This document shows positions 9,558 through 34,196 of a stretch of DNA of 34,669 nt, piece after piece (the stretch's first letter is position 1; every line of letters starts with the position of its first letter). The DNA is from Puniceicoccaceae bacterium 5H (GTDB lineage: Bacteria > Verrucomicrobiota > Verrucomicrobiia > Opitutales > Oceanipulchritudinaceae): the NCBI GenBank assembly GCA_009772895.1, contig WOUP01000029.1:1-34669 (forward strand), written 5' to 3'. The translations under genes were made by a program, and so were the position numbers. The notes beneath the pieces are model-generated. The model was given only the letters and a program-made list of their open reading frames with translations, had not been told where the DNA came from and ran no database searches.

Positions 9558-9569
9558 CGCAACGTTGAG
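9558..9569. promoter_or_regulatory. Putative LacI-type operator, site 1
   Basis: CGCAACGTTGAG matches the palindrome CTCAACGTTGAG at 11 of 12 positions and keeps the central CpG usual in LacI-family operators. It lies 26 bases (start to start) from site 2. Confidence 0.6.
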
Positions 9570-9583
9570 CCGGGCGCGGCGGG

Positions 9584-9595
9584 CTCAACGTTGAC
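9584..9595. promoter_or_regulatory. Putative LacI-type operator, site 2
   Basis: CTCAACGTTGAC matches the palindrome seen at 19779, 24280 and 34185 at 11 of 12 positions. Together with site 1 it stands between two divergent operons, so one regulator could control both. Confidence 0.65.
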
Positions 9596-9692
9596 TGCGA
9601 ATGGCTCGAAATTGGGCGTATCGACGCGCTTGATCCGCCTCATCCAGAGGCCAGCTGTCACCGTTCCCTTACCCCCCTCGGCGGTGCCAGCA

Positions 9693-9719
9693 CGATCGGG
9701 ACTCCTGCCGTCCCGATCG
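9693..9719 (+). other. Perfect 10-bp hairpin in the leader of the beta-helix gene
   Basis: CGATCGGGAC (9693-9702) pairs with GTCCCGATCG (9710-9719) across a 7-base loop (TCCTGCC), 61 bases before the ATG at 9780. No T-run follows, so it is not a standard intrinsic terminator. It may stabilise the mRNA or be a protein-binding site. Confidence 0.45.
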
Positions 9720-9779
9720 GCCTCCGGTTCCTACCCCTGGAAGGCTTTGGCCTCATTTCACTACCACCCTGTATCGCTC

Positions 9780-12700
9780 ATGACGCACTCCTTCACTCCT
9801 GCAAAGTCCTCTTTGCGCTTTAGTCGCCTGCTCTTGTTGGGTGGGCTGGCGCTGGCCCCATCGCTGCGGGCCGAGCTGATTACCCAGACCGGCTATAACG
9901 GCGGCGGCGAATCCTGGGAAACCGGCGCCGACTGGAGCAATGGTCTGCCCGCTCAGGCCGGCAACGACTACATCAACAATGCCGGGCTCAATACGCTGCT
10001 CTCGCGCACGCCGGAAGGCACCTCCGTTGAGTTCCCTGGCGACTCGCTGACCATCGCCAACACCAGTGTGATCTACGCCCGCGCGGCCACGGTCACGATT
10101 GCGGACTTCCGCCTGGACAACGGCCAAATGGCCTTTGCCGACGATACCTACCCGGAGGCCATCGAGCTGGCAGGAGGGCTGACGCTGCTCGCGGGCGGCG
10201 GTTACTTCAATACCGCACACGGCGATTACGCGGGCGTCTTTGAGATCACGGCCGACATTTCCGGCGTGGGTGCGCTGAACGCGCAGATGATGCCGATCGC
10301 ATTCGCCGACCCCTCCACGACGACCTCGACGGTCGAGATCGTGCTCTCGGGCAATAACACCTACGAGGGCGGCACCCTGGCGGGTCTGCGCGGCATTGTC
10401 ACGACGATGGCCGACGGCGCTCTCGGTACGGGCGACGTCACGGTTTCTTCCACCGGCCAGTTGAATCTTGGCGGCGGCACCACGCACGATTACATCGACG
10501 ACGCGGCCACGCTGACGGTCGAAGCCGGCGGCCTGGTGGACCTCAATTTCACGGGTACCGATACCGTCGGTGCGGTGGTGCTCGACGGCACCGAAGGCGA
10601 GACGGGCACCTATGGTGCGGTCGGTTCCGGCGCGGACCACGAGAGTGCGGTTTCTCCGGCACGGGCCTGCTCGAGATCCCGGCGGTCGAGACGCTGATCC
10701 ATCAGACGGGTTACAACAGCGGCGGTGAGTCCTGGGAAACGGGTGCGGACTGGAGCAACGGGCTCCCGGCGCAGGCGGGCTTTGACTACATCAACGAGCA
10801 GGGCCGCGATTCGGGGCTCTCGCGCACGCCGGAGGGAACTTCCGTGGAATTCCCGGGCGATTCGCTGACGATGGCCAATACGAGCGTGATCTATGCCCGC
10901 GCGGCCACGATCACGATTGCGGACTTCCGTCTCGACAACGGCCAGATGGCGTTTGCCGACAATACCTACCCGGCGGCGATCGAGTTGGCGGGCGGCCTGA
11001 CGCTGCTCGATGGCGGCGGCTATTTCAACACCGCACACAGCGACTATCCAGGTGTTTTCAACATCACGGCCGACATCTCCGGCGTGGGCGCGTTGAACGC
11101 CCAGATGATGGCGATCGCGTTTGCCGATCCCTCCACGACGACCTCGACGGTCGAAATCGTGCTGACGGGTAACAACACCTACGAAGGCGGCACGCTCGCC
11201 GGCTTGCGCGGTATCGTGACCGCCGCAGTCGACGGTGCGCTGGGCACGGGCGACGTTATGGTCAGCTCGACCGGCACGCTGCACCTGACGGGCGGCACCA
11301 CCAACGACTACATCGACGACGGTGCGATGGTGGAAGTGGCCTCCGGTGGGGTCGTGAACCTCGACTTTACGGGCACCGATGTGATCGGTGGCCTTTCGAT
11401 CGCCGGCACCGAGGCCGAAGGTGGCACCTGGGGTGCCGTGGGCTCGGGCGCCGACCATGAGAGCGACGCCTTGACCGGCACGGGCATGTTGCAGATCCCC
11501 GGTGACGAGACCATCGTGTATCAGACGGGCTACAACAGCGGCGGTGAGTCCTGGGAGACGGGTGCGGACTGGAGCAATGGGCTCCCGGCGCAGGCGGGCT
11601 TCCACTACGTCAACGAGCTGGGCCGCGATTCAGGGCTCTCGCGCACGCCGGAAGGCACCTCCGTGGAGTTCCCCGGTGAGTCGCTGACGCTGGCCAATAC
11701 CAGTGTGATCTACGCCCGCGCGGCCACGGTCACGATTGCGGACTTCCGCCTGGACAACGGCCAGATGGCATTTGCCGACAACACCTACCCGGCGGCGATC
11801 GAATTGGCGGGCGGGCTGACCCTGCTCGAGGGCGGCGGCTATTTCAATACCGCCCATGGCGACTATGCGGGTGTCTTCAACATCACGGCCGACGTTTCCG
11901 GCACGGGCATGCTGAACGCCCAGATGATGCCGATCTCGTTTGCCGACCCCTCCACGACGACCTCGACGGTCGAGATCGTGCTGACGGGCGACAACACCTA
12001 CGAGGGCGGCACGCTCGCTGGTCTGCGCGGCATCGTGACCGCCGCGGTGGACGGTGCGCTGGGCACGGGCGACGTCACGGTCAGCGAGACCGGCACGCTG
12101 CACCTGACCGGCGGCACCACCCACGATTACATCGACGACAGCGCCACGGTGAACCTCGCCCCCGGCGGGGTGTTGAACCTCGACTTTACGGGTACCGACA
12201 TGATCGGCGCCCTCCTGATGGACGGAACGCTGGCCGATGCGGGCACCTGGGGTGCCGTCGGCTCCGGCGCGGATTTCGAGAGTGAACAAATAGAAGGTGA
12301 AGGGTATCTACAGGTCCCCGGTGCCGGGATTGATCATATCGTCAACCGGGACAAGCGCGTCTTCGACGGGGAGGTCGAAGGCGCGCAACCCGGGGACCGG
12401 TTGCTGCTGGAGGCGGGCGAACGTGCCGCCATCACCTTCCGCAACCTGCATGGCTCCGAGGCCCACCCGATCGTGATCGTCAACGACGGCGGCCGCGTCA
12501 CCTTCTCGGGCACGGACTTCGCGGCTGTGGCGTTCGAGAACTGTAGCCACGTGCGCTTCACGGGCACGGGTTCGTCCGACTATTTCTACGGGATCGAGGC
12601 CACCGGCTCTTCGACCATGGGCATCGCGGTCCACGAGTTTTCGACCAACGTCGAGGTGGATCACTGCGAGGTCCACGGGGTCAACTTTGCCGGGATCATG

Positions 12701-13879
12701 GCCAAAACGGATCCGAAGTGCGACCTGTCGGCCAACCGCGACAACTTCGTGATGTATGACACCGTGCTGCACCACAACCTCGTCTACGAGGTCGGCGGCG
12801 AAGGCTTCTACATCGGTTTCTCCTTCTACGGTGGCTACAGCAGCACGGCAGGTTGCGAGGGCACGACCCTCTACCCGCACGTGCTCGATGGCGTGAAGAT
12901 CTACCGCAACATCGTGCACCACACGGGCCTCGAAGGCATCCAGGTGGGCTGCGCGACTTCGGACTGCGAGATCTACAAGAACCACGTCACCTTCACGGGG
13001 CTGACCAACCAGCAATACCAGAACCGCGGCGTCCAGCTCGGTGGAGGCACGGGCGGTAAGTTCTACCAGAACTACATCGCCGATGTGCCGGCAACGGGCC
13101 TGATCGTGCAGGGCTACGGTGACAACGAGATCTACGACAACGTGATCGTGCGCACCGGCGGCGTCTTCCTGGACAAGGGGCCGGAACCGACTTCCAACCA
13201 GGGCTTCAAGGTCTTCAACAATACGATCGTGGACTCCGAGATCGGCATCAACCTCTACGCCACGGACGTCCTGCAAAACCAGATCAAGAACAACCTGGTC
13301 GTGAACTCCAGCGGTGAGGACATCCGCCGGCTCAGCAGCTCGGTGCCGTGGGAACTCGAAGGCAACCTGACCTACGATACCGCGGCCGAAGCCGGCTTTG
13401 TCGATGCCGAGAACGATGACTACAGCCTGGCGAGCGGCTCGGCCGCCCTCGACGCCGGCGTGGATCTCTCCGCGCAGATGCCGGCCGTGGACTACGAGGG
13501 CAAGGTGCGGGAGAGTGATTGGGATGTCGGCGCCTACGAGGGCCAATGGCTGCTCAAGGACGAGCCCACAACGCTGCGCGGGATGACCGACACCGGCGCG
13601 GGCATGGCCACCTCGACGTGGTTCGGCACCTTCTCGCTGGATGACTACCCCTGGCTCGGCCACGACCGCCTCGGCTGGCTCTACGCCTACGACGACGAGA
13701 TCGACAGCCTCTGGCTGTGGTCGCCCACCGCCGATTCGTGGCTCTGGACCTCGCGCTTCTGCTTCCCGTTTGCCTGGAGCGATGCGGGGACCACCTGGCT
13801 GTATTTCTACCTCCACGAAGGCGAAGCGGTCTGGGCCTACAACTACTCGACCTCCGCGTGGGAATTCTACGCCGAGTAG
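9780..13879 (+). CDS. Giant secreted PATR-repeat/beta-helix protein, frameshifted
   Basis: With one base restored near 10655 this is a protein of 1366 residues. It starts at the ATG at 9780 with a signal peptide (about 1-32). It continues with three nearly identical 273-residue repeats (see 9876-12331), each containing a passenger-associated-transport-type motif such as 'NNTYEGGTLAGLRGIV'. A right-handed parallel beta-helix domain follows (about 12331-13590) and resembles the protein at 30799. The C-terminal aromatic module (about 13600-13879) is rich in Trp and Tyr ('YPWLGHDRLGWLYAY', 'LWLWSPTADSWLW'). No autotransporter beta-barrel is present. The beta-helix suggests a polysaccharide-binding or polysaccharide-cleaving surface protein. 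The break splits the gene into frames 9780-10697 and about 10660-13879; the second has no secretion signal of its own. It is probably first in an operon, 23 bases before the UPF0261 gene. Confidence 0.75.
9876..12331 (+). repeat. Three in-frame tandem repeats of 819 bp
   Basis: Repeat units begin near 9876, 10694 and 11513. The anchor CAGAC(G/C)GG recurs at 9885, 10703 and 11522. The second interval is 819 bases (273 codons) and the first is 818, which exposes a one-base loss in unit 1. Each unit encodes 'ESWETGADWSNGLPAQAG', 'RTPEGTSVEFPG', 'TVEIVL' and 'GAVGSGAD'. The high nucleotide identity points to recent duplication or gene conversion. Confidence 0.88.
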
Positions 13880-13902
13880 CGCACCGAAAGGATACGGATA
13901 TC

Positions 13903-15120
13903 ATGGATGCACAGATTGCAGTTGTCGGGGCCCTGGACACCAAGGGCGCGGAGTTCAGCTTCCTTTGCGAGCGGATCCGCGCCGCCGGTGGACGGCCCCT
14001 GTTGATCGATTTCGGCGTGCTCGGCGACCCCGAGATCCAGGCCGATGTGACCGCGCAGGAAGTCGCCCGGGCGGGCGGCGGAGACCTGGATGCCATGCGC
14101 CAGGAGCGGCACAAGGACTATTGCATGCGCACGATGTCGGCGGGGTTGCGGGCGGTCGTCCGCTCCCTGTTCGACGAGGGGCGCTTGCAAGGCATCATCG
14201 GCATGGGCGGCAGCGGGGGCACGTCGATCGCGACGAGCGCCATGCGCGCCCTGCCGGTGGCGGTGCCCAAGCTGATGGTCTCGACCGTCGGGGGCGGCAA
14301 CGTCAGCGCCTACGCCGGGACGAAGGACATCACCTTCATGCCCTCGGTCGTGGACGTGGCGGGCCTCAACCAGCTCAGTCGCGACATCTACGCCAATGCC
14401 GCCGGGGCGATCGTGGGCATGGTCCACCGGGCTCCGGTGGAGGCCGAGGCGGTTGAGCGGCCCATCGTGGCCGCCTCGATGTTTGGCAACACCACCCAGG
14501 CGGTGGACGGTGCGCGAAAGATCTTCGAGGCGCGTGATCTCGAGGTGCTGGTCTTTCACGCCACCGGTGTCGGCGGGCGCACGATGGAAGACCTGATCGC
14601 CTCGGGCTACATCAGCGCGTCCTTCGACTTGACCACGACGGAGCTCGCCGACTGCGTCTGCGGCGGTGTGTTCGATGCCGGGCCGGAGCGTTGCCTCGCC
14701 GCGGCCCAGGCCGGCGTCCCGACGGTGCTCGTGCCCGGTTGTGTGGACATGGCCAACTTTGGCGGGCGCGCCACCGTGCCGGCCCAGTATCAGAACCGCC
14801 TGCTCTACGAGTGGAATCCCGATATCACGCTGTTGCGCACCAATGCCGAGGAGAACCGCAAGATGGGGCAGATGATCGCCCAGGCGGCCAACGCTTCGAC
14901 CGGGCCGGTGGAGATCCTGTTGCCCCTCAAGGGCGTGTCCATGCTGGATGCGCCTGGTGAGATGTTTTGGGACCCGGAGGCCGACGCAGCCTGTTTTGAC
15001 GCGATCCGCGAGTACCTCAAGCCGGGCATCCCGCTGCGCGAGCTCGACCTCAACATCAACGATCCGGAGTTCGCCCGGGCGGCGGCCGAGCGTCTGCTGG
15101 CCCTGCTGGTGGGCTCCTGA
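13903..15120 (+). CDS. UPF0261 / Tm-1-like ATP-binding domain protein
   Basis: The 405-residue protein belongs to the UPF0261 family, whose eukaryotic relative is the N-terminal half of the tomato Tm-1 resistance protein. The biochemical role in bacteria is unknown. Family signs are the opening '[17 protein letters not shown]' (5-21), the glycine-rich nucleotide-binding stretch '[12 protein letters not shown]' (100-111) and '[20 protein letters not shown]' (127-146). The ATG at 13903 is chosen because the frame upstream lies inside the preceding gene and because a Shine-Dalgarno-like AAAGGA (13887-13892) sits 10 bases before it. This is one of only two clear ribosome-binding sites in the window. 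The next gene starts 17 bases downstream and encodes the domain that is fused C-terminally in Tm-1. There is no signal peptide, so the protein is cytoplasmic. Confidence 0.9.
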
Positions 15121-15137
15121 ACCCTTGCGTTTTTCTT

Positions 15138-15974
15138 ATGTCGATAGCACGAACTGAAATCATCCGCCGCCTGCGTGCGCAGGTCGCCGAAGGACGTCCC
15201 ATCGTCGGCTGTGGCGCCGGCACCGGCATCTCGGCCAAGATGGCCGAAGCCGGCGGCGCGGATCTCATCATCATTTACAACTCGGGCCGTTTTCGCATGG
15301 CCGGTCGGGGCTCTCTCGCGGGCCTCATGCCCTATGGCGACGCCAACGCGATCGTGATGGAGATGGCGCAGGAGGTCTTGCCCGTGGTGCGCGATACCGC
15401 CGTATTGGCGGGCGTGTGCGGCACGGATCCCTTCCGGCTGATGCCCGTCTTCCTCGAAGACCTCAAGCGCGCGGGCTTCTCCGGCGTGCAGAACTTCCCG
15501 ACCGTGGGCCTGATCGATGGCGACTTCCGCGCCAATCTGGAGGGCACCGGCATGGGCTACGCCAAGGAGGTGGAAATGATCCGCCTGGCGCATGAGCTGG
15601 ATCTGTTTACCTCGCCCTACGTCTTTGATGTGGAGCAGGCGCGGGCCATGACCGAGGCCGGGGCCGACCAGCTGGTGGCCCACGTCGGCCTGACGAACTC
15701 CGGCAGCATCGGGGCATCCGTCGCGCTCGGGCTCGAGCAGGCGATGCAACAGGTGCTGGAGATCGCGGCCGCGGCGCGCCAAATCCGCCCCGACATCCTC
15801 GTGATCTGCCACGGCGGGCCCTTCGATGAGCCCGACAACGTGGCCAAGGCCCTGCAGGGCATGCCCGGCATCGAAGGTTTCTTCGGCGCCTCCAGCATCG
15901 AGCGCTTGCCGACCGAGCGCGCGATTTCCAGCCAGGTGGCTGCCTTCAAGTCCACCGGGCTGGCCGGTTCCTGA
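15138..15974 (+). CDS. Phosphoenolpyruvate hydrolase-family TIM-barrel protein
   Basis: This is a 278-residue TIM-barrel protein of the 'PEP hydrolase' family, related to PEP mutase/isocitrate lyase-like enzymes. The true substrate of most members is unproven. Recognisable stretches are '[20 protein letters not shown]' (23-42), '[18 protein letters not shown]' (45-62), 'GVCGTDPF' and '[13 protein letters not shown]'. It follows the UPF0261 gene by 17 bases. The two together, in this order, correspond to the two halves of tomato Tm-1, so they very probably work as one complex or in consecutive steps. No Shine-Dalgarno sequence is visible. The protein is cytoplasmic. A secreted esterase starts 19 bases downstream. 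Confidence 0.88.
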
Positions 15975-15993
15975 TTCCTCTGACCCCAATCCC

Positions 15994-17682
15994 ATGAAAC
16001 GCCTTTCCTGCTCCTGCTTCCAATCTCTGCTGCTGCTTGCCGGAACCGTCGCCGCCCCGCTCTCGACGTGGGCGGTGACGTACCCGGCGGTCAACGAGAC
16101 GAACTTCCCTTCGGGCACCTTCAGTGACGGTAACCCGACGGATATTTTCTATCGTTACTTCGTGCCGAGCGGTTACGACCCGGACGATGCTTCGACGCTC
16201 TACCCGCTGGTCTTGTACTTACACGGCCAAGGGCCTTCGGGCACGGACAGCAGCCACCTCAACGGTGGGGGCGGGGGCTCGATGATCTTCATCTCGAGCG
16301 ACTCGCCGGACAACCAGTCTGCCTACCCGTGCTTTTACCTCGCGCCGCAGTTGCCGGCCAGTAACACGGTCACGAACTGGTCGGATCCGGGCTACATCGC
16401 GGAGCAGATCGCGGGGCTGGTGGGGCAGTTCGTCCAGGACTTCAACATCGATCCCGACCGGATTTACGTGACGGGCGTTTCCATGGGCGGTGGGGGCACC
16501 TTTGCCCAGGCTACCCGCCACCCCAACCGCTACGCTGCCGCCGTGCCGCTGGCGGGGTGGGGCGACGGCAAGGAAGCGGATTACCTGCACTTGCCGCTGT
16601 GGGCCGGCCATTCCAACGACGACCCCCGGGTGCCGGTCTCGAGCACCGATACGCCGATCGCCAATCTGCGCGCGCTGGGCGGCGACCCGATCTACACGCG
16701 CACGGCCACCGGCGGTCACGGGGGGCCTTCTTCGCTCTTTTTCAGTGCGGGCCACCCGCTGGTGCCGTGGATGATGGCCCAGCGCCGGGGCGAGCCCAAC
16801 GACAGCAGCCTGCTGAGCCTCAACATCACGCAGCCGGAGACGGACGGTACCTATATCGCCACTACGGACAGCGTGGACCTCGCGGGCACTGCGCAAGGGA
16901 ACACCTTCACTGAGATGGAGTGGAAGAACCTGCGCAGCAACGATACCGGCGACATGACCGCTGCGGCCGATTGGTCCGTCACGGCGGTGCCGCTTCGCAG
17001 CGGGCTCAACCGTGTGCGCGTGCTGGGCACTACCGGCTCGTTCACCAGTCAGCCCAACGGCAATACCACGCTCTCCGATACGATTACGATCGTGGAGCGG
17101 GCCGAAGGAGATACGGTCGCGCCGGAGATCGCGGTTGCGCACCCGTCCTACGTCGGGGACCGCTTCCTCACCTCGCATTCGACCTTGGAGCTTTCGGGCA
17201 CGGCGTCGGACGACATGGCGGTGGATCGCATCACCTGGTCGAGCGACCGCCTGGGGCACGGCATTGCTTCGGGCACGACCGACTGGTGGCTGTCGGACAT
17301 CGACCTGTTCCCCGGTGAGAACCACATCACGCTCACGGTCTGGGACATCGCCGACAATTCCACCACCGAGACCCTGGCCGTCGTCTACGATCCAGACCTC
17401 GTGCCGCCGGAAGTGGTGGCCTGGGGACCGACGGACGATGCGTCCGATGCCGACGTGACGGTGACGTTCCGGTGGCTGAAGAGTCAGACCGCCTACAGCT
17501 GGTCGGTCCAGTCCTGCCCGGACCCTGCGGCGGGGCAATGGCAGGCCCTCGAGCCGGCTGCGAGCAGCACCGAGGACGATCCGGACGACGCGGCTTACGC
17601 GCGGGTGACGGTCGAACTCAACCTGGGCGCCGCTGCCGATACCCGCGCCCTCATGCGTGTCGTCGCCCAACCGGCGGACTAA
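15994..17682 (+). CDS. Secreted esterase (alpha/beta hydrolase) with Ig-like domains
   Basis: The 562-residue protein has a signal peptide (about 1-27) and an alpha/beta-hydrolase domain (about 45-265) of the carbohydrate-esterase/PHB-depolymerase-like kind. The oxyanion region is 'LVLYLHGQG' (72-80) and the nucleophile is Ser163 in 'GVSMGG'. Acid candidates are Asp209/Asp210 in 'GHSNDDPRVPV', and His242 in 'TGGHGG' may complete the triad. The domain ends with 'PWMMAQRRG', typical of this type. Two Ig-like beta domains follow (about 270-460), then a C-terminal beta region with 'WSVQSCPDP'. It probably removes acyl groups (acetyl or feruloyl) from a polysaccharide outside the cell or in the periplasm. 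It sits between the PEP-hydrolase gene and a secreted protein, with 19-base gaps on both sides, so it is probably in the same operon. Confidence 0.82.
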   Translation: MKRLSCSCFQSLLLLAGTVAAPLSTWAVTYPAVNETNFPSGTFSDGNPTDIFYRYFVPSGYDPDDASTLYPLVLYLHGQGPSGTDSSHLNGGGGGSMIFISSDSPDNQSAYPCFYLAPQLPASNTVTNWSDPGYIAEQIAGLVGQFVQDFNIDPDRIYVTGVSMGGGGTFAQATRHPNRYAAAVPLAGWGDGKEADYLHLPLWAGHSNDDPRVPVSSTDTPIANLRALGGDPIYTRTATGGHGGPSSLFFSAGHPLVPWMMAQRRGEPNDSSLLSLNITQPETDGTYIATTDSVDLAGTAQGNTFTEMEWKNLRSNDTGDMTAAADWSVTAVPLRSGLNRVRVLGTTGSFTSQPNGNTTLSDTITIVERAEGDTVAPEIAVAHPSYVGDRFLTSHSTLELSGTASDDMAVDRITWSSDRLGHGIASGTTDWWLSDIDLFPGENHITLTVWDIADNSTTETLAVVYDPDLVPPEVVAWGPTDDASDADVTVTFRWLKSQTAYSWSVQSCPDPAAGQWQALEPAASSTEDDPDDAAYARVTVELNLGAAADTRALMRVVAQPAD

Positions 17683-17701
17683 CCCCTGACCTTTATCGAT
17701 C

Positions 17702-18748
17702 ATGAAAGCGATTTTTCCGGTTCTGGCGGCGTGTGCCATCGCAGCCCAGCTCAGCGGCGCGACGGCTACCGTGCGCTTCGAAGTATTCCAGCAAGTGGAC
17801 GACTACCAGCTGCTGACGAGCGACGAAGACCTGCGCTTCATCGCCTATGACGAGGTGGAGGGGGCGGAGGCCACGACGCACCTCTTTTTCTCCGGGCTGG
17901 CGGCGATCTACACCGATTCGACGGTGGCCGATGCCCGCTATGCCGCCGTGGATGCGGAGACGGCTACGGTCTACGATGTCGGCCACCTGTATCTGACCCT
18001 GCCGGATGCCCTGGCGGACGACTCGGGGGCCTCCTCCGGCCTGTTCGGCGTCGTGCCGCGCAATGGCCAGTGGAGCAACTACAGCGTCAGCACGCCCACG
18101 GTCTCGCCGGTCGGCGGGGCGGAGGGCGACTTTGTATTCGACGACGCGGGCCACGTGACCTTCGACGGCTTGGGCCGCCTGTCGTTGACTGGCACCTCGA
18201 CCTTTGTCGTGGCGGACGAGCAGCACGTGGTGATCGAGCCGTATGCGCTCGGCTTCAGCAGCACCTCGTGGGGCTTCCGGCGCACGACCTTGCAGCGGCT
18301 CGACGGTGAGTTCATCGGCGTGTCGGTGGGCGGGGTGGTGAGCGCCTCCAACAATGCACCGCCGAGCTACGACGCCCAGATGTTTGCCGTGCGCGTGTTC
18401 GACGTGCCGGATGCGGACTTCGACGGCGTTCCCGATCTGGTGGATGACGACGTCACGGCCTTTGCCTACGTGGATGGCGCGTGGACCTACCACCCGGTTT
18501 CGGGCTGGGTCTACGGCTTCGGCCCGGTCTGGGGCTGGTCGGTCGTCACGGGGTTCAGCCACTACGACGCGCTGCCATGGATCTACACCTACGAAACCGG
18601 CTGGATCTATTACGGCGGTCGCAACGATTACGGCCTGTGGTACTGGATCCCCGAAACGGGGTGGGTGCTCACGGCCGACGATGCCGCCGGCGCATACGAT
18701 TACGAGCCCTGGGGCGACGGCGACAAGATCTCCGGCTCGTTCTATTGA
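17702..18748 (+). CDS. Secreted protein with aromatic-rich C-terminal module
   Basis: I do not recognise the main domain. The 348-residue protein has a signal peptide (about 1-22) and a beta-rich middle. A Ca2+-binding-like acidic loop ('DADFDGVPDLVDDD') lies near residue 240. The last 90 residues are packed with Trp, Tyr and Gly ('GWVYGFGPVWGWSVV', 'PWIYTYETGWIYYGG', 'GLWYWIPETGWVL'). The same kind of ending occurs on the proteins at 9780 and 23179, so it is probably a shared anchoring, sorting or glycan-binding module. The gene is the last of the plus-strand series 9780-18748. The stop is followed within 40 bases by the repeat region, whose first hairpins with TTTCG could end the transcript. 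Confidence 0.72.
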   Translation: MKAIFPVLAACAIAAQLSGATATVRFEVFQQVDDYQLLTSDEDLRFIAYDEVEGAEATTHLFFSGLAAIYTDSTVADARYAAVDAETATVYDVGHLYLTLPDALADDSGASSGLFGVVPRNGQWSNYSVSTPTVSPVGGAEGDFVFDDAGHVTFDGLGRLSLTGTSTFVVADEQHVVIEPYALGFSSTSWGFRRTTLQRLDGEFIGVSVGGVVSASNNAPPSYDAQMFAVRVFDVPDADFDGVPDLVDDDVTAFAYVDGAWTYHPVSGWVYGFGPVWGWSVVTGFSHYDALPWIYTYETGWIYYGGRNDYGLWYWIPETGWVLTADDAAGAYDYEPWGDGDKISGSFY

Positions 18749-18785
18749 GCCGGGTGCATGGCGCCGGTGGATGTGCCGGCGCTAT

Positions 18786-18917
18786 GGCACCTCTTCAAGG
18801 TGCTTTCGTCGAGGGAGGGCAACCGGTGGTATCGCCCGCTGGTGCGTGCTCAACCACCGGCTACGTTATGTGACCCCTTCGGGGTCGGTAACGGCAGACG
18901 CGGCAGGCGAACGTCGG
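18786..18917 (+). repeat. Multi-hairpin repeat, orientation A, copy 1
   Basis: Three stems occur in order: GCACCTCTTCAAGGTGC (18787-18803, 6-bp stem), the long stem CCGGTGGT...ACCACCGG, and GACCCCTTCGGGGTC. It is a near-identical direct repeat of 19333-19465 and is inverted with respect to 19201-19320. Confidence 0.85.
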
Positions 18918-18963
18918 TTCGCTCTGGATCGGCATCAAGCGGACGAGCGTCGTGTTTATGCCG

Positions 18964-19006
18964 TACCACCACCGGCTATAGGCTGGTACCTCTTCAGGAT
19001 GCTGGG
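18964..19006 (+). repeat. Partial multi-hairpin repeat, orientation A
   Basis: A fragment with ACCACCGGCTATAGGCTGG followed by CCTCTTCAGGATG. This is the second half of the long stem joined directly to a CTTCA-loop hairpin, as also seen at 34286-34320. Confidence 0.55.
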
Positions 19007-19200
19007 GCAGGCCGCCGTCTCCAGACAAGCCGCCGGTGAAAACGTGTAGATGCCAAGTCGGACGAACGGAACGCCTGACGCGCGATGGAGTGCGGCGCCT
19101 CCCGACGAGACCGGAGAGCGAGAGCGTGGGTGTTCGGTGAGAACGGGCGAGTATCAGCCGACGGCTTGCGTGGACGCTGCGCCCTATCGTGTCCCTTGGT

Positions 19201-27400: not shown

Positions 27401-27976
27401 CGCGAGGTGGTGGGCACCGGCTTCAACCTCGCCCCCGGCTACCAGGTAGACGGGCAGGGCGATCAGGTGGGCGACGAGATCTGGACGACGGAATACGACG
27501 TGTGGGTCTACCAGCTCGGGCCGGATGCCTTCGAGGATCCCAGCGACCCGACGACGCTCAAGTCTTCGGCACTCAACGGGGCCGACCTGTCGTTTGTGCC
27601 GGAGTATTCCCTGCGCCTGTGGAACCGCTACAACTTCAACGAAGGACCGCTGGAAGGCCTGGCCGTCGGCGGCGGGGTGCGCTGGAACAGCTCCATCCCG
27701 ACCACGGCCGGGGTAGGGGGCCAGGAACTGGCCATCAACCGCTACCCGACGCCCGACATCCCGGCGCGGGCGGTGGTGGACCTCTTCACCTCCTACCGGA
27801 CCGAGATCTGGGACCGCGAGTGGACCTTTTCGCTGATCGTGAACAACGTGCTGGACGATCACGAGGTGGACGAAGTCGCGGTTTACGACGTGGAGGATGG
27901 CGACCCCATCAAGCGTCGCACCCACCTTTACTACGATCCCGTCTCGTTCCGCCTGAACGTGAGCATGCGCTTCTAG
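24452..27976 (+). CDS. TonB-dependent outer-membrane receptor
   Basis: TonB-dependent receptors import glycans, siderophores or cofactors across the outer membrane using TonB energy. This protein of 1174 residues is long for the family. It has a signal peptide (about 1-36, ending 'AWAQ') and an N-terminal acidic segment with 'IIELPAFEIVTG', the usual TonB-box-like opening in Verrucomicrobiota. The plug domain carries 'NQVIIRGYSVPNQQ' and 'ERLEVVRGPASLLYG'. A long beta-barrel region ends in 'RLNVSMRF' with the terminal Phe expected for outer-membrane assembly. The ATG at 24452 is preferred over 24401 because the signal peptide then starts close to the N-terminus; 24458 is also possible. An SSS symporter starts 4 bases after its stop, giving a matched outer- and inner-membrane import pair. 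An operator lies about 160 bases upstream. The substrate is unknown. Confidence 0.93.
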   Translation: MLMTSLLPYPARRLAKPRYLTTLLACVLCATPAWAQDDNSDEEEIIELPAFEIVTGKDDRYLSPVAQSGTPINMAIRDAPLSLETVNAEFIGDLQAVDSQEALAYSAGVFLESFENTSTANSDFESRDRSPSSSASSDAPFTNQVIIRGYSVPNQQRFGFRIGSIVPAYGVVIGGSTDSVNTERLEVVRGPASLLYGINVLSGVVNVLPRKPVGQFGGEASVSVGSYDFFRSTLDVTGPLTDTLNYRMAAAYTEEGDWTDYLLDKKQYYVGQLDWTPVKKVNLFLEAQYSKSRREGGGQQFFVDGGSINAQDFYNEYDERYTFGRDYFNEGTFTDDKWAGRTDPLGNELLGETYLVEKPGVDYTFPVLDPGTRLSGPDVYREQKEYSLLSLLNVQPFEGMEVEMGAYYTHTEVEERNVSMAVVTNGQNTVNLNRIKLNPEGADGIWAGIGELFQTPDNRSTAAEDAPAIEDVRFARYFWYKEPTEADSLQLRFRSAYTFDTNFFDGDLPIEHALVVGVNYIQDEMSFVTGGVSDGNVFTFEQGNESNNRFADDPYHLRNIFDYSVIHYNGEALAIPGYLTTSSLEGIDDTSEDYIVQSGWRDATLWYKGRYFAYQGQFWGDRANLVAGVRQDAYQVKEAEQLRVVDRDYVTDEWIGSGTEAGQFPVIDRLIGYGDQPYVWQDDLPDSLNAGIEQSIERLRAEQPNGTVSYNFPEDQKFTTKFYGLSVRVLDPVSVFYVHSEGVFPNTGQRDGAYQPIDAEQTTNDEIGVKFELMEGKISGSLGVFRIKRENAVWNWLSAPNPAAWASGPLGTSDSFSPDEIRAGNESIKYGVGVEYVVQAFEEAGIELPVRRKPTGSTDPDQYQFSASDFEEYGVVVVGKRPWNNPESPTADHTYFFIDYELMKSVENNPLTRAMDIAIRDQAAAGNPINYFGPTGETYNASQTAVSPGANVTYEEEGTGFDGNIIYSPNDNYQVVFTFSKQNREVVGTGFNLAPGYQVDGQGDQVGDEIWTTEYDVWVYQLGPDAFEDPSDPTTLKSSALNGADLSFVPEYSLRLWNRYNFNEGPLEGLAVGGGVRWNSSIPTTAGVGGQELAINRYPTPDIPARAVVDLFTSYRTEIWDREWTFSLIVNNVLDDHEVDEVAVYDVEDGDPIKRRTHLYYDPVSFRLNVSMRF

Positions 27977-27980
27977 CTGT

Positions 27981-29774
27981 ATGACGGCTCATTTAGACAA
28001 AATCGTCATCGTCCTCTACCTGCTGTTTCTGGTGGGTATGGGGGCGGCGTTCCGCTCGTTCAACCGCAATATCGACGACTATATTCGCGGGGGCGCCCAG
28101 GGCACCTGGTGGCTGGTCGGGACCAGTATCCTGATGAGCGGCATCAGCGCCTTTACCTTCACGGGTAACTCCGGTGCGGCCTATGAAGCGGGCTTTACGC
28201 CGCTGATCATCTACATTGCACAGGTTTTTGCCTACCTCGTGGCGGCGATCTGGCTGGCCCCCTGGTTTCGCCAGACACGCGTCCTGACGGGTCCGGAGAT
28301 TTTCCGGACCCGCTTCGGGATCGAGGTGGAGCAGTTCATCTCGTATTTCTCGTTCATCGTGGGCACGGTCACCGCGTCACTCGCCCTGTGGGGCGTGGCG
28401 ACCTTTTGCAGCGTCATCTTCGAGATCCCGATCGAGTGGACGATCCTGGGGCTGGGGCTGGTCACGTTGGCGTATTCGACTGCCGGCGGCCGCTGGGGCG
28501 TGATGGCGACGGACTTTGTGCAGAGCCTCGTGCTCTTCCCCATCACCATCCTCGTGGCGGTGCTGAGCCTGCACGCGGTGGGCGGCATCTCGGGCTTTGT
28601 GGACAAGCTGCAGGGGCCCGAATTGCACGAGGCCTACCAGCTGATCAAGGAGCCCGGGGCCTTCCCGGCCGGCAAGTACAGCGTCAACTGGATCTTTGCG
28701 ACCTTCCTGATCATGTTCTTCCAGGGGCTGAGCTTTTCCAACGCGCCCAAATACTTCAGCGTCAAGGACGGGCGGGAAGCCCGGTATGCGGCGCTGATGG
28801 CGGGCGTGTTGATGGGCATCGGCGGGCTGATCTGGTTTATCCCGCCCATGGTCGGGCGCATGCTCTTCTCTGAAGAGATCGCGTCGGCGGCGCTCTCGAA
28901 CCCCCATGAGGCGGCCTACGCCGTGGTTGCGCGCAACTTGTTGCCCAACGGACTGCTCGGCGTGATGGTCATTGCCATGTTTTCGGCGACGATGAGTTCG
29001 CTGGATACGGGCCTCAACGGGGCCGCGGGCATCGTGGTGCGCAACATCATACCGCCGATTCGCGATCTCTTCGGGCGGGAGGAGCTGAGCCACAAGGGTC
29101 AACTCTACGCCGGCAAGATCACGACTCTGTGCCTGGGCGTCTCCATCATCGGCATGGCCTTTTACCTTTCGCAGCAAAAGGACCTGGGGCTGTTCGACGC
29201 GTTCTTTACGCTCACGACGGTCATCGGGCTGCCGACGGCGGTGCCGGCTATCGTGGCGGTATTCATCCGCCCCTTGCCGCGCTGGTCTTACTTCGTGGTC
29301 ACCGGAGCCGGCGCACTTGTGTCGCTGACGTCGGTGATCCAGGAGACGGTCTTCGACATCCCATGGACGGTGCAGGAGCGCACGTTCTGGGTCTTCGGCG
29401 TGGGCACGGTCGCGTGCCTGGCCACCATCCCGTTTTACTGGAATCCGCGCTTCACTTCGGAGCGCTTTCGGGAGCGGGTGGACGCCTTTTACCGGCAGAT
29501 GCACACGCCGGTGGACTTCGCCAAGGAGATCGTGGAGTCCCGCGACTTTACGCAACTGCAGATGATCGGGTTCTTCTCGATCGGGCTCGGTGTCTTCATC
29601 TGCTTCCTCGTCCTGTTGCCCAACCCGTGGGCCGGACGCCTTTCCATCCTGTTCGTCGGCGGTTTCTCCATCGGCATCGGTTCGCTCCTGCGCTTTGCCG
29701 CCTACCGGCTGCAGCAGCGTGAGCGTCGCCTCCGAGCCGGCCTGAAACCCGACGCTCCCAAAACCGACTCGTGA
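27981..29774 (+). CDS. Sodium:solute symporter (SSS family)
   Basis: SSS-family transporters move sugars, sialic acid or organic acids into the cytoplasm with Na+. The 597-residue protein has about 13 or more hydrophobic segments. Family signatures include 'MSGISAFTFTGNSGAAYEAG' near residues 52-71, 'LAYSTAGGRWGVMATDFVQS' around 160-180 and 'MFSATMSSLDTGLNGAAGI' around 335-352. A C-terminal cytoplasmic region ends with a basic tail. It follows the TonB receptor by 4 bases and overlaps the next gene (GTGA), so the three are almost certainly one transcript. It probably carries the sugar or oligosaccharide brought in by that receptor. Confidence 0.92.
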   Translation: MTAHLDKIVIVLYLLFLVGMGAAFRSFNRNIDDYIRGGAQGTWWLVGTSILMSGISAFTFTGNSGAAYEAGFTPLIIYIAQVFAYLVAAIWLAPWFRQTRVLTGPEIFRTRFGIEVEQFISYFSFIVGTVTASLALWGVATFCSVIFEIPIEWTILGLGLVTLAYSTAGGRWGVMATDFVQSLVLFPITILVAVLSLHAVGGISGFVDKLQGPELHEAYQLIKEPGAFPAGKYSVNWIFATFLIMFFQGLSFSNAPKYFSVKDGREARYAALMAGVLMGIGGLIWFIPPMVGRMLFSEEIASAALSNPHEAAYAVVARNLLPNGLLGVMVIAMFSATMSSLDTGLNGAAGIVVRNIIPPIRDLFGREELSHKGQLYAGKITTLCLGVSIIGMAFYLSQQKDLGLFDAFFTLTTVIGLPTAVPAIVAVFIRPLPRWSYFVVTGAGALVSLTSVIQETVFDIPWTVQERTFWVFGVGTVACLATIPFYWNPRFTSERFRERVDAFYRQMHTPVDFAKEIVESRDFTQLQMIGFFSIGLGVFICFLVLLPNPWAGRLSILFVGGFSIGIGSLLRFAAYRLQQRERRLRAGLKPDAPKTDS

Positions 29775-30793
29775 ATCCCGACCTTTCTTCCCAACCCCGG
29801 GCCATTCTCAACCTGTCGGAGGCCATGTGGCAGCAGCTCTTTACGCCCCAGGCGGTGGCCGAGTTGCAAGAGCTCGTGACCTTCGACAGCGACCCGCCGA
29901 CCCCGGCGGTGTTGAGCCTGCCCGAACAGCCACGCGACGACGTGCGCATCATGATCACCTCCTGGGGGGCGCGGCCGCTCGATGCCGCGTTGCTCGACAA
30001 GTTCCCCCGGCTGGAGCTGATGATGCACGCGGCCGGCACGGTGCGCGAAGTCCTGCCCGATCCCGCGGTGGGCGAGCGCATCAAGATCTGCACGGCCTCG
30101 CAAATCAACGCCCGCCCGGTAGCCGAGTTCACCCTCGGCATCATCCTCACCGCGCTGCGGGAGACCTTCTCGTGGCGCAAGCGCTTCCTGCTGGAAGGGC
30201 CGCAAATCTGGTGGGGCCAGCGCTCGGAGTTCCAGGGCGGCTACTACGGCAAGACGGTCTGCCTCGTCGGCTTCGGCGCGGTGGCGGAATACCTCATTTC
30301 GCTGCTCCGGCCCTTTGAGTTCGAGGTGTTGGTCGTCTCCGACTACCTGACCGAGGAAAAGGCCGCCGAGCTGCAGGTGACCAAGACGACCCTGCTCGAG
30401 GCCGCGCCGCGCGCCGATGTGGTGTCGCTGCACGAGGCCGACCTGCCACCGTATCGCGGCATGATCAACCGGGAGGTGCTGGAGGCGATGAAGCCCGGCG
30501 CCTGGCTGATCAACACCGCCCGCGGGCGCCTGATCGACGAAGAGGCCCTGATCGCCGTGCTCGAAAAGGGCCACATCTGGGCCGCACTCGACGTTGCCTG
30601 CGAAGAGCCGCCCCGCGACGGCCACCCGTTTTACCGTCTCGAAAACTGCATCCTCACGCCCCACATCGCGGGCTCGCTGCGCGGCGAACTGGCGCGCATC
30701 GGCGATTACGTGGTGCGTGAGATCCGCAACCACCTCGAAGGCAAGCCCTACGAGCACGAGCTGCGTCCGGCGAGCCTCGGCAAACGCGCCTGA
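29771..30793 (+). CDS. D-isomer-specific 2-hydroxyacid dehydrogenase
   Basis: These NAD(P)H enzymes interconvert 2-keto acids and D-2-hydroxy acids. The 340-residue protein has the split substrate domain and a Rossmann domain with 'VGFGAVAEYL' (166-175). The catalytic residues are Arg251 in 'NTARGRLIDEEAL', a Glu in 'DVACEEP' (about 278-279) and His298 in 'TPHIAGS'. It starts with GTG, overlapping the symporter stop by four bases, so it is translationally coupled. The dinucleotide motif has Ala in the place of the third Gly, a known tolerated change. Its presence in an import operon suggests that an aldonic, uronic or keto-acid intermediate arises from the imported glycan. Close homologues are often annotated as hydroxypyruvate or phosphoglycerate dehydrogenase without proof. 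Confidence 0.9.
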   Translation: MNPDLSSQPRAILNLSEAMWQQLFTPQAVAELQELVTFDSDPPTPAVLSLPEQPRDDVRIMITSWGARPLDAALLDKFPRLELMMHAAGTVREVLPDPAVGERIKICTASQINARPVAEFTLGIILTALRETFSWRKRFLLEGPQIWWGQRSEFQGGYYGKTVCLVGFGAVAEYLISLLRPFEFEVLVVSDYLTEEKAAELQVTKTTLLEAAPRADVVSLHEADLPPYRGMINREVLEAMKPGAWLINTARGRLIDEEALIAVLEKGHIWAALDVACEEPPRDGHPFYRLENCILTPHIAGSLRGELARIGDYVVREIRNHLEGKPYEHELRPASLGKRA

Positions 30794-30798
30794 CCCCC

Positions 30799-32004
30799 AT
30801 GAAATCGCTGCTCCGCTTCCTTCAATGCTGCGCTCTCTGCGTCGCGCCCCTCTGGGGCGTGGCGGCCACGATCACCATCCCGCCCGACTGCCGCACCTTC
30901 GACGGCCAGGAGCGGGAGGTGAAGCCGGGCACCGTGCTGGTGTTGCCGGCCGGTGAGCGCGGCCCCTTGACCTTTGCCCACTTGCAGGGCACGCCCGCAC
31001 AGCCCATCCGCATCGTCAACGGCGAGGGGCGGGCGGTGCTGCGGGGCGAGGAATACTACGGCATCAAGTTTCGGGATTGCCGCTTCGTGCGCCTCACCGG
31101 CACCGGTAGCGACGCCCACCCCTACGGGATCGAGATCGCCGGCCCGTCGACCATGGGCATCGAGGTCAACGACCTGAGTTCGGATGTCGAGATCGACCAC
31201 TGCGAGGTCCACGGGCAGCGCTTTGCGGGTATCACGGCCAAGACCGACCCGCGTTGCGACCTCTCGGCCAATCGCGGGCATTTCGTGATGCGCAACGTGC
31301 GCATCCACGACAACTTGATCCACCACGTGGGCGGCGAGGGGCTCTACATCGGCCACTCCTTTTACGGAGGCTATGCGAAGAACCAGGAGTGCCCCGACAC
31401 CGTGCTGTATCCGCACACCGTCGTCGGGACCGAGCTGTACCGCAACATTGTGCACCACACCGACGCGGACGGCATCCAGCTGGGCTGCGGCACCGTCGAT
31501 TGCCGGATCTACGACAACCACATCACCTTTTACGGTCAGAACCCCTTCGGCCCTTACCAGGACAACGGCATCCAGCTGGGTAACGGCACGGGTGCGTCCT
31601 GCTTTGGCAACTACATCGCCGACGGCCCGGGCATCGGTATCGTGGCGATCGGGCTGGCCAACAACGCGATCCACCACAACGTGCTGGTGCGCACCAAGGG
31701 CATTCGCCTGAGCGTCGGCGCCGAACCGGCGGACACGGGCTACCGCGTCTTCAGCAATACGCTGGTCGACACCCCGGGCCCGGCCATCTGGCTGACCCCG
31801 CATACGCCGGGTGTGCACGAGCTCTACGACAACCTGATGGTGGGCTGCGCGGGCGCGATCGAGGTGGCCGAAGGCGTTGAAGCCCGCCTCTCCGACAATC
31901 CCGAGTTCGAGACGCCGGCCCAGGCGGGCTTGTTGGAAGATGACCACCGCGCCCCGGAGGCACCGGCACCAGCGGCCGGCGCGTTCCCGGGACGGGTTCG
32001 TTAG
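30799..32004 (+). CDS. Secreted right-handed beta-helix protein
   Basis: The 401-residue protein has a signal peptide (about 1-23) and a parallel beta-helix body of the pectate-lyase/PbH1 kind, with repeating 'NxIVHHT', 'DNHITFYG' and 'GNYIADGPG' turns. It is a clear paralogue of the beta-helix domain in the protein at 9780. Shared strings include 'DHCEVHG', 'AKTDP.CDLSANR', 'YRNIVHHT' and 'NYIAD'. Many paired Cys residues suggest disulfides. It lacks the repeats and the aromatic C-terminal module of the large protein and ends in a short Ala/Pro-rich tail. It starts 5 bases after the dehydrogenase and is the last gene of the TonB operon. A polysaccharide lyase or glycan-binding function is plausible, but I see no assignable catalytic residues. 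Confidence 0.8.
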   Translation: MKSLLRFLQCCALCVAPLWGVAATITIPPDCRTFDGQEREVKPGTVLVLPAGERGPLTFAHLQGTPAQPIRIVNGEGRAVLRGEEYYGIKFRDCRFVRLTGTGSDAHPYGIEIAGPSTMGIEVNDLSSDVEIDHCEVHGQRFAGITAKTDPRCDLSANRGHFVMRNVRIHDNLIHHVGGEGLYIGHSFYGGYAKNQECPDTVLYPHTVVGTELYRNIVHHTDADGIQLGCGTVDCRIYDNHITFYGQNPFGPYQDNGIQLGNGTGASCFGNYIADGPGIGIVAIGLANNAIHHNVLVRTKGIRLSVGAEPADTGYRVFSNTLVDTPGPAIWLTPHTPGVHELYDNLMVGCAGAIEVAEGVEARLSDNPEFETPAQAGLLEDDHRAPEAPAPAAGAFPGRVR

Positions 32005-32011: not shown

Positions 32012-32374
32012 CTATTCGCCGACCGTCTGGCGGTCGGCGGAGGAGAAGGCGATCATCAAGTGCGCCTCTTCGTGGCCCGTATTGCGGGCGCAGTGCCAGA
32101 TGTTGGGGGCGATCGTCACGGAGTCGCCCGGGCCCATGGCAAACCAGCCGGCGCCGTCGACATAGTGGTCGATCGTGCCGGAGACCACGTGCAGCACCTC
32201 TTCGCAATTGGGGTGGTAGTGGCGGGGGTTGGCCGCGCCGGGGTTGAGCACGCACTTGCCGAGCGTCTGGTCGTTGCTCGTGTCGTCCTGGCCGGTCACG
32301 TACCAGTAGAGGCGGCCCCAGTCGAACACGGCCGGGGCGATCTTGTCTTGCGGAACGAAAGCGTAGGTTTTCAT
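32012..32374 (-). CDS. Small single-domain cupin protein
   Basis: The 120-residue protein is one cupin barrel. Motif 1 is 'PRHYHPNCEEVLHVVSG' with metal-ligand candidates His52, His54 and Glu58 or Glu59. Motif 2 is 'MGPGDSVTIAPNIWHCARN' with His94. The pattern is complete, so the protein probably binds a metal. Small cupins of this kind act as sugar isomerases, epimerases or oxidases, or as ligand sensors; the role is not determinable here. It starts 3 bases after the Gfo/Idh/MocA gene and is the last gene of a three-gene minus-strand operon. It is convergent with the beta-helix gene; only 7 bases separate the two stops. Confidence 0.88.
   Translation of the reverse strand: MKTYAFVPQDKIAPAVFDWGRLYWYVTGQDDTSNDQTLGKCVLNPGAANPRHYHPNCEEVLHVVSGTIDHYVDGAGWFAMGPGDSVTIAPNIWHCARNTGHEEAHLMIAFSSADRQTVGE
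32017..32039. terminator. Hairpin at the convergent gene ends
   Basis: A perfect 9-bp stem CGCCGACCG / CGGTCGGCG with a 5-base loop lies at the end of the cupin gene, just past the stop of the convergent beta-helix gene. There is no T-run on either side, so termination would have to be weak or factor-dependent. Confidence 0.4.
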
Positions 32375-32377
32375 CGG

Positions 32378-33361
32378 TTAAAGGGCTTCGTAGTGGATGG
32401 GCACGGTCTTGCCGGTGTCGGCGGCCTGGACGATGGCATCGTAGAGCTTCATCGTCTGGTAAGACTGGTAGATCTCGGAGGGCACGGGGCCGGTATGGGT
32501 GCCGCGCAGGTGCTCCACAAACACGCGCAATTCCACGCCGTGGCCGGTCTCGTCGCCGCTGTCGCCCGCGCTGACGAAGGTCGGCGGTTCGCGCCATTCG
32601 CTCGTCTTGCCACCCTCGGCGATGCGGTATTGCGAGGAGTTGTGGATGCTCATGAAGTTGCCGCCCTCGAGCGTGATCTCGATCTCTTCGGTCGGGATCT
32701 GGAACGAGCGCCCGTCGGTCAGGTTCATCGAGCCGACCGCGCCGTTGGCAAACTGGAGGTTGACGGCGTAGGCGTGGTCTTCGCGCGCGAAGCAGGAGAC
32801 CGCCTCGACCTGACCGAAGAGGTAGGCCACGAGGTCGATCGTGTGGATCGCGAAGTCGAGCAGGAAAGGCCGCGGGTGCGCGCCGGCGGGGTAGGTGGCC
32901 GAGGCGTAGTCGACGGAGATGGAGTAGCGCTGCAGCTCCCCATGGGCTTGCAGCCAGGCGGCGGCGCGCTGGTAGACGACGGCGTAGCGCTTCTTGAAGG
33001 CCGTCATGCACAGGCGGTCCTGTTGGCGGGCCACCCGGGCCACCGCCAGGGCGTCATCGGCGTTTTCGGCCGGCGGCTTTTCGGTGTAGACGGGCAGGCC
33101 GCGCTGCAGCATCTCGGTCGCGAGCCGGGCGTGCACCTTGGGCCCCACGCAGACGATCACGCCGTCGGGTTGCTCGGTGTCGAGCATCTGGCGGTAATCG
33201 GTGTAGGGGGTGCCGCCAAAGCGTCGGGCGTTGCGCTCGGCCTTCTCGCGGTCGAGGTCGCAGACGCCGACCAGGGCGCCGCCGGCGAGGCCGAGGAAGG
33301 GGTAGATCTTGCGGCTGGCCAGGTGGCCGCAGCCAATGATGCAGATGCGAGGGTCGCTCAT
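32378..33361 (-). CDS. Gfo/Idh/MocA-family oxidoreductase
   Basis: This family oxidises or reduces sugars, inositols and sugar derivatives with NAD(P). The 327-residue protein has the N-terminal Rossmann motif 'IIGCGHLA' (8-15), the signature Glu94-Lys95-Pro96 in 'YTEKPP' and the C-terminal-domain His172 in 'LLDFAIHTIDL', all expected for an active enzyme. It has no signal peptide. The start overlaps the stop of the isomerase gene by four bases (ATGA). A strong Shine-Dalgarno AAGGAG (33369-33374 on the minus strand) stands 7 bases before the ATG, which is rare in this window. The grouping with a TIM-barrel isomerase and a cupin resembles sets that act on 3-keto-sugars or inositol. The substrate is not readable from sequence. 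Confidence 0.92.
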   Translation of the reverse strand: MSDPRICIIGCGHLASRKIYPFLGLAGGALVGVCDLDREKAERNARRFGGTPYTDYRQMLDTEQPDGVIVCVGPKVHARLATEMLQRGLPVYTEKPPAENADDALAVARVARQQDRLCMTAFKKRYAVVYQRAAAWLQAHGELQRYSISVDYASATYPAGAHPRPFLLDFAIHTIDLVAYLFGQVEAVSCFAREDHAYAVNLQFANGAVGSMNLTDGRSFQIPTEEIEITLEGGNFMSIHNSSQYRIAEGGKTSEWREPPTFVSAGDSGDETGHGVELRVFVEHLRGTHTGPVPSEIYQSYQTMKLYDAIVQAADTGKTVPIHYEAL

Positions 33362-34125
33362 AAAGTCACTCCTTCCACGTGGGCCAGGTATTCGCGCGCC
33401 TGGGCCAGGTAGCTCAAGGTGTTTTCGGGGTCGGCCACCTCCATTTCGATCACGTAGGGGTCTTGATAACCGTCGGCCGTGAGCTGGAGGAAAATGGCGG
33501 GCAGATCGACTTCGCCGGTGCCGTAGGGCACGCTCTGGGGGCCGATCATGTCCTTGACGTGCACGAGCCCGATGCGGCCCCGCAGCAGCGCGTAAGCCTC
33601 TTGCCAGGCGACGCCCACGGCGTGGAAGTGCCCGATCTCGAACAGGGCCCGCACGCGCGGGTCGATGCCCGCCAGCACCTCGCGGTAATCCGCCTCGCTC
33701 GAGATGGGCGAGCCCGCGTGGTTTTGCACCACCACGGTCACGTCGAGGTCTTCGATCGCGTCGAGGAAGGGCTTGGACGCACGGATGTAGGTCGGGCGGT
33801 CGGTCGCCTTGTAGATCAGGTAAGTCGCACCGGTGGCCACCGCGTAGCGCGCCGCGTGGATCGTCTCCTGGAGGCTCTCCTCATAGCGGGCGGGGTTGAC
33901 CGGCGGTAGGTGAAAGGACGTGAAGCGCATGCCGAAGCGGGCGCCCAGATCGCGCACCGCCTGCGGGTCGCCGGTCACATCGACGGCGGAATGCGCCCAG
34001 CCGGTGAAGAGTTCATACCGGCTGAACCCGAGGGCACTGTAGGCCTGCAGCGTCTCCTCCAGCGTGAGCTTGGGGTGACAGCACGGGCTGATCACCAGAT
34101 TGGTTTCGGGGGTGGGGTTGCTCAT
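33358..34125 (-). CDS. Sugar phosphate isomerase/epimerase (TIM barrel)
   Basis: The 255-residue xylose-isomerase-like TIM-barrel protein has the usual metal-site stretches: 'VVVQNHAGS' (131-139), 'LFEIGHFHAVG' with Glu163 and His166, 'LVHVKDM' with His189, and 'VIEMEV' with Glu227. In the first motif the usual Glu (ENH) is Gln134, which may weaken or alter metal binding. The ATG at 34125 is preferred; the frame opens further upstream only from a TTG. It is the first gene of the operon isomerase - Gfo/Idh/MocA - cupin, with an exact operator palindrome 60-71 bases upstream. Enzymes of this family partner with Gfo/Idh/MocA proteins to convert keto-sugars or eliminate aglycones. Confidence 0.88.
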   Translation of the reverse strand: MSNPTPETNLVISPCCHPKLTLEETLQAYSALGFSRYELFTGWAHSAVDVTGDPQAVRDLGARFGMRFTSFHLPPVNPARYEESLQETIHAARYAVATGATYLIYKATDRPTYIRASKPFLDAIEDLDVTVVVQNHAGSPISSEADYREVLAGIDPRVRALFEIGHFHAVGVAWQEAYALLRGRIGLVHVKDMIGPQSVPYGTGEVDLPAIFLQLTADGYQDPYVIEMEVADPENTLSYLAQAREYLAHVEGVTL

Positions 34126-34184
34126 GATAGGGTCTGTGCCATCACCCTCTACCAATGCCGCACCCCGGTGAAGACAGCCGGCAA

Positions 34185-34196
34185 CTCAACGTTGAG
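34185..34196. promoter_or_regulatory. Putative LacI-type operator, site 5
   Basis: A perfect CTCAACGTTGAG palindrome 60-71 bases before the isomerase/Gfo-Idh/cupin operon start. There is no other coding sequence nearby that it could serve, apart from repeats. Confidence 0.7.

Follow-up and report, generated by a model that had tools for sequence, protein, structure and literature searches.

A recurrent CG-centred palindrome as candidate operator of a local LacI-type regulon in Puniceicoccaceae bacterium 5H

Gene content of the locus and position of the palindromes

The window, i.e. the whole stretch of DNA that was analyzed, corresponds to the entire contig C39 (34,669 bases) and represents 0.8% of a 4.10-Mb draft genome of 40 contigs with 98.6% completeness. 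It is a polysaccharide-utilisation locus that includes the gene of the sole regulator found there. Operon boundaries were inferred from spacing and strand. The features considered here are the following:

2288 to 9411, minus strand: putative operon encoding a DUF455 protein, an isomerase-like ORF, a GH42 and a GH116 protein (Pfam)
9558 to 9569, no strand: operator-like palindrome CGCAACGTTGAG, 11/12, between the divergent genes 8158-9411 (minus) and 9780-10697 (plus)
9584 to 9595, no strand: operator-like palindrome CTCAACGTTGAC, 11/12, its centre 26 bp from that of the 9558 site
9780 to 18748, plus strand: putative operon encoding repeat and beta-helix proteins, UPF0261, a PEP-hydrolase-like, an esterase-like and a secreted protein
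19779 to 19790, no strand: exact palindrome CTCAACGTTGAG, with the ATG of the LacI-type gene 27 bp downstream
19818 to 20963, plus strand: LacI-type regulator with a helix-turn-helix (HTH) at residues 33-76 (Pfam LacI, 1.5e-8) and a PurR-like sensor part
20973 to 21737, plus strand: xylose-isomerase-like TIM barrel (PF01261), downstream of lacI
21726 to 24153, minus strand: putative operon encoding a secreted protein (23179-24153) and GH1 (about 21726-23087)
24280 to 24291, no strand: exact palindrome CTCAACGTTGAG, between the divergent secreted-protein/GH1 and TonB-receptor operons
24401 to 32004, plus strand: putative operon encoding a TonB receptor, an SSS symporter, a 2-hydroxyacid dehydrogenase and a beta-helix protein
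32012 to 34125, minus strand: putative operon encoding an isomerase-like TIM barrel, a Gfo/Idh/MocA oxidoreductase and a cupin
34185 to 34196, no strand: exact palindrome CTCAACGTTGAG, 59 bp before the probable start codon (ATG at 34125) of the minus-strand isomerase-like operon and 29 bp from a longer TTG start at 34155

Four control regions head six putative operons, which amount to 21 genes in our hand-made gene set. The only two called genes of the window outside these operons, at 187-2243, are NnrS and SCO1-like. Within the first operon, the ORF at 6618-8171 has no Pfam match and gave a weak sulfoquinovose-isomerase match far below the cut-off. This isomerase-like ORF overlaps GH42 by 125 bases (6618-6742) with a low-complexity end, and a frameshift near its end is possible. 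The proteins encoded at 9780-10697 and 10844-13879 carry near-identical repeated modules (EFPGDSLT..NTSVIYARAAT), located within 9780-12300, which by the look of it arose by recent tandem duplication.

With three exact copies and two copies at 11/12, CTCAACGTTGAG is an even palindrome with a central CG, the form of a LacI-type operator. The first-pass annotation of this DNA had proposed five such sites, exact or 11/12, all of them intergenic, and no AACGTT core inside genes. All five coordinates are right: the window has five AACGTT in all, one in each of these sites, and 5/5 lie outside called genes in a window whose intergenic DNA amounts to 8.1% (hand-made gene set). The same annotation had tied the sites to six transcription units. 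The centres of the 9558 and 9584 sites lie 26 bp apart in a single divergent control region, which leaves four control regions and not five.

We then compared the flanks (60 + 60 bases) of the five sites over the 10 pairs in both orientations and found 22 to 44 of 120 bases identical, the highest value (44/120) being that of the overlapping 9558/9584 pair. The flanks are thus unrelated, which argues that the palindrome is not a copied or spread repeat. A promoter scan of the window gave one match in all (24561) and no promoter-like match overlapping any site. Two terminator-like matches were detected (24204; 19771-19758 on the minus strand), neither of which overlaps a site, the second being close to the 19779 site. 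A literature search for CTCAACGTTGAG returned only unrelated matches.

Clustering of the palindrome in the window and in the genome

The bare AACGTT core is not enriched in the window, where the 5 copies found compare with a mean of 4.28 in shuffles, i.e. chance level. The 12-mer with up to 2 mismatches gave 8 matches for a shuffle mean of 1.00. When all 12-bp palindromes of the window were tested against dinucleotide shuffles, 0 of 600 reached the observed clustering; this test used three measures (exact copies, copies within one mismatch, and copies within one mismatch that are intergenic) with expectations from a first-order model. A cruder, composition-blind count was weak and much less striking than this composition-aware test: 11 of 1000 shuffles contained some palindrome with at least 3 exact copies and 303 of 1000 some palindrome with at least 5 copies within one mismatch. 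Neither the extended 12-mer nor its placement is due to chance.

In the draft genome, CTCAACGTTGAG occurs exactly three times, always in the window. Sites with at most one mismatch number 16 (3 exact and 13 one-mismatch, 2 of the latter in the window), compared to 13 for the reversed control pattern, none of them exact. The pattern CAACGTTG occurs 40 times genome-wide versus 41 times for its control, and 5 of the 40 sites fall in the window, which is 0.8% of the genome. As near-copies and CAACGTTG are both at control level genome-wide, the enrichment is local. Spread over the genome without link to this gene set, which the first-pass annotation had named as a result that would speak against it, was not found in this 40-contig draft (98.6% complete).

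Outside the window, 22 of 35 CAACGTTG sites lie in called genes and 13 do not. The one-mismatch copies outside the window number 11, of which 3 keep AACGTT and 8 have a broken core. None of the three core-intact copies, one each on C27, C40, and C32, is in a called gene, and each of them precedes a gene. Among the broken-core copies, 6/8 are in called genes and 2/8 are not, against 11/13 and 2/13 for the control copies; all these counts outside the window are small and were examined post hoc. Three copies outside the window concern us here:

C27:17151 (L051 9152): core-intact copy, 48 bp before a GH2 gene
C27:13761: broken-core copy CTCAATGTTGAG, upstream of an AraC-type gene, on the same contig as GH2
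C40:11674 (L049 8675): core-intact copy, 121 bp ahead of the start called for a polysaccharide deacetylase gene; a longer TTG-started frame would include the site

We tentatively extend the regulon to the GH2 gene of C27 and the deacetylase gene of C40 on the basis of these core-intact copies, and the regulon probably does not end with the window. C27 may be part of it, or may even lie next to contig C39. Its GH2 is 40% identical to a GH2 encoded in a 20-kb stretch of genome G123, which also holds relatives of the window GH1 (44%), 2-hydroxyacid dehydrogenase (33%), and beta-helix protein (37%). GC-rich intergenic repeats are found at both window ends, at the right end of C27 and, by translations, at 18749-19700 of the window. 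They are perhaps the cause of the assembly break at the contig ends.

The LacI-type protein and the proposed regulon

A Pfam scan of 24 window ORFs revealed a single DNA-binding regulator, the protein encoded at 19818. Its N-terminal HTH matches PF00356 (1.5e-8, 34.7 bits vs. a cut-off of 27). With the single sequence, the LacI HTH was the only Pfam match above cut-off, Peripla_BP_3 (E 0.008) falling below it, and matches to PDB were confined to the HTH part. A profile built from an alignment of 14 regulators hit PurR chains over positions 5-312 of 332, and this near-full-length match of the protein and its relatives indicates that the sensor part is LacI/GalR-like. Single-sequence structure prediction of the protein was uninformative (pLDDT 36).

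According to an alignment made partly by eye, the protein has K, S, and R at LacI positions 17, 18, and 22, and a valine at the hinge position LacI 56, where the usual leucine inserts at the central CG. According to PMC2978694, leucine occupies the hinge in 82% of LacI-family domains, which makes it usual but not strictly defining. The same source links Arg22 to a G at half-site position 6; this link is statistical and not a definition. In the five sites, half-site position 6 is a C in 9/10 cases and a G in 1/10. Arg22 facing C6 is a real point against the 19818 protein as the binder, or else the sign of a different contact pattern. The prediction of the first-pass annotation that the palindrome is the DNA site of this regulator was thus borne out in part: the position 27 bp from the gene, the family, and the central CG fit, whereas the Arg22-G6 pairing and the hinge leucine do not. 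Binding of CTCAACGTTGAG by the 19818 protein is plausible. We consider the protein a likely binder and no more than likely, since its position and family fit but the two residue trends are unmet and the site of a LacI-type regulator on C32 is nearly the same.

The palindrome very probably brings about co-regulation of the six operons via the four control regions. We propose, as the reading that we find likely, that the palindromes are operators of a local, autoregulated regulon of the LacI/GalR family. A dimer of the 19818 protein would sit on CTCAACGTTGAG via its two HTH heads, with its hinge at the central CG, and would repress the glycosidase, uptake, and sugar-processing operons as well as its own gene. 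The operators would be freed once the PurR-like sensor part has bound a sugar released from the substrate. What we observed are the sites, the fact that they cluster in the locus and fall between genes, and the family of the regulator; the binding, repression rather than activation, and the effector are what we infer.

The sites stand before the gene of the regulator and before neighbouring operons and are not spread elsewhere, with the three core-intact one-mismatch copies outside, which is the picture of a local regulon. Among the regulators counted in a survey of the LacI family (PMC4052901), nearly 90% are local and 72% are autoregulated, and 93% of the regulons have 20 or fewer genes. Even palindromes account for 1251 of 1303 cases in this survey, measure 16-22 nt and mostly have a central CG (PMC4052901), in agreement with the earlier statement that a central-CpG palindrome is the family norm. 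The local sugar regulons that it describes have the same LacI-type HTH and sensor part, a CG-centred even palindrome, and sites before their own gene and neighbouring catabolic operons, as here (PMC4052901). In contrast to the surveyed regulons, the conserved motif is only 12 bp here, and with 21 genes the set is larger than 93% of them. By the survey's counts the local autoregulated LacI regulon is the commonest kind, and we are dealing with a known kind in a new place. From sequence alone, it predicts a group of genes that act together on the same substrate, where on the DNA the switch would bind, and possible further members elsewhere, the GH2 of C27 being an example.

Operators of the PurR/CcpA type have AAACGTTT-like cores. 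The A-A-C|G-T-T core around a central CG is common to them and to the window sites, but the latter differ by a C-T-C outer half and by a C where a G would be expected at position 6 beside Arg22. It is conceivable, though we regard it as rather doubtful, that the 19818 protein reads its operator in a register or with contacts that the described LacI code does not cover (Arg22 facing C6, valine hinge, GVSR for TVSR) and that the regulon extends to C27 (GH2 and AraC-type genes) and C40 (deacetylase gene). The protein would be a test case for a LacI-type regulator that departs from published recognition trends.

The sites could also be operators with another LacI-type protein as binder, or as one of several binders, such as the regulator of C32. 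The genome has 19 LacI-type HTH matches, the Arg22-G6 link does not hold for the 19818 protein, the C32 LacI gene has ATCAACGTTGAG upstream, and AATCAACGTTGAGTT lies at C32:25698 (L050 8699) between the C32 TonB receptor and this gene. If this were true, the window would be controlled or co-controlled from another locus. However, five of the eight copies in the genome that keep AACGTT with at most one mismatch are in the window, including one directly in front of the 19818 gene, against one on C32, and the regulators surveyed in PMC4052901 are mostly local; we therefore hold this explanation to be unlikely. As an observation in its own right, AATCAACGTTGAGTT provides a second sugar locus with an almost identical operator-like site, and cross-talk between the two loci is possible.

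Less likely still, the sites would act for something unrelated, be it an AraC-type protein, some other regulator, or a methylation or structural mark, with lacI merely one of its targets. The AraC-type gene of C27 with CTCAATGTTGAG upstream, 256 bp from its called start, speaks for it. AACGTT is moreover a restriction-enzyme site, which we counted in favour of an unrelated factor, and AraC-type proteins tend toward direct repeats, which we counted against it. Further points against such a factor are the lack of enrichment of bare AACGTT in the window, the control-level number of CAACGTTG sites in the genome, and the symmetric central-CG palindrome, typical of the LacI regulators surveyed in PMC4052901. 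Chance, or the spread of a repeated intergenic element carrying the palindrome, is very improbable in view of the composition-aware test (0/600) and the lack of common flanks, even if the ends of C39 and the end of C27 have common repeats of up to 30 exact bases and 303/1000 shuffles without composition correction had some palindrome with at least 5 near-copies.

Related genomes and other LacI-type loci

Searches for an orthologue of the 19818 protein found none in 88 other genomes, where the matches listed reach 37% identity at most, and none in the genome contig collection. At E ≤ 1e-55, it matches only itself in 372 genomes of the order. A search with the HTH alone gave at least 42 matches in 35 of the 372 genomes, itself included, with at most 54% identity among the matches listed, self excepted. 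We scored 14 loci for the motif: 19818, two others of the same genome (C32 and C2), and 11 from other genomes, namely 10 of the 29 other loci of the HTH-only search and one from the 88-genome search. Copies within 2 mismatches were present only at the 19818 locus and on C32, and none of the 11 similar-regulator loci of other genomes has one.

The exact motif occurs at 49 sites in 41 of the 372 genomes. Outside the source genome, 46 sites compare with 47 control matches (our own count), i.e. background level. Three exact copies are found only in the source genome, and two copies in 6 genomes (5 on different contigs, one 1.8 Mb apart); no other genome of the 372 has a cluster of the exact motif. 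We read 29 of the 46 outside sites, of which 15 are in called genes and 14 are not, with a caller trained on the window and rough elsewhere. One of these 29, an exact CTCAACGTTGAG at L184 1501 (G360), closely follows a LacI-type gene.

Searching the genome contig collection for the beta-helix protein gave nothing. In G123 and G306, the stretches read around homologues of the beta-helix gene carry different LacI genes and have no intergenic copy of the motif within 2 mismatches. The motif thus follows the source locus rather than this set of genes in general, which would be expected if regulators are exchanged; it also follows that no independent genome confirms it. In G123, a CG palindrome, GTTCAAGCGCTTGAAC, is found at L190 2261, 2626, and 11084, with weaker copies at 2261 and 11084, and is a candidate operator of that stretch's own LacI regulator.

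Within the source genome, 5 of the 19 LacI-type genes, 19818 included, have a perfect CG-centred 12-bp palindrome at most 160 bp upstream of the HTH, each of a different sequence. A perfect palindrome within 250 bp upstream was found at 6 of 77 LacI loci (19818 included), where simple shuffles would give 1.38; the figure of 77 is a slight overcount, as rows L103 and L104 are misplaced and L148 repeats L020. The palindrome GTTTACGTAAAC before the LacI gene of C2 (L087) is found again in G006 (L027), another genus of the family, in front of a regulator whose HTH is similar, and is a candidate conserved operator. This recurrence, together with the palindromes near LacI genes, supports palindromes as operators of adjacent regulators.

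C2 also carries a gene set paralogous to that of the window (L108 9856-18966). This set has a LacI gene of its own, and upstream lies GACAACGTTGAG, with 2 mismatches. Its secreted protein, TonB receptor, SSS symporter, and 2-hydroxyacid dehydrogenase are 30%, 38%, 33%, and 38% identical to those of the window. Among 17 further LacI neighbourhoods (14 to 20 kb), one, L125 on C22, has a repeated palindrome like that of the window. Three intergenic copies of TAAAACGTTTTA (one exact, two one-mismatch) lie there at 10215, 10433, and 14272 around another LacI-type gene, which makes it a second candidate local regulon.
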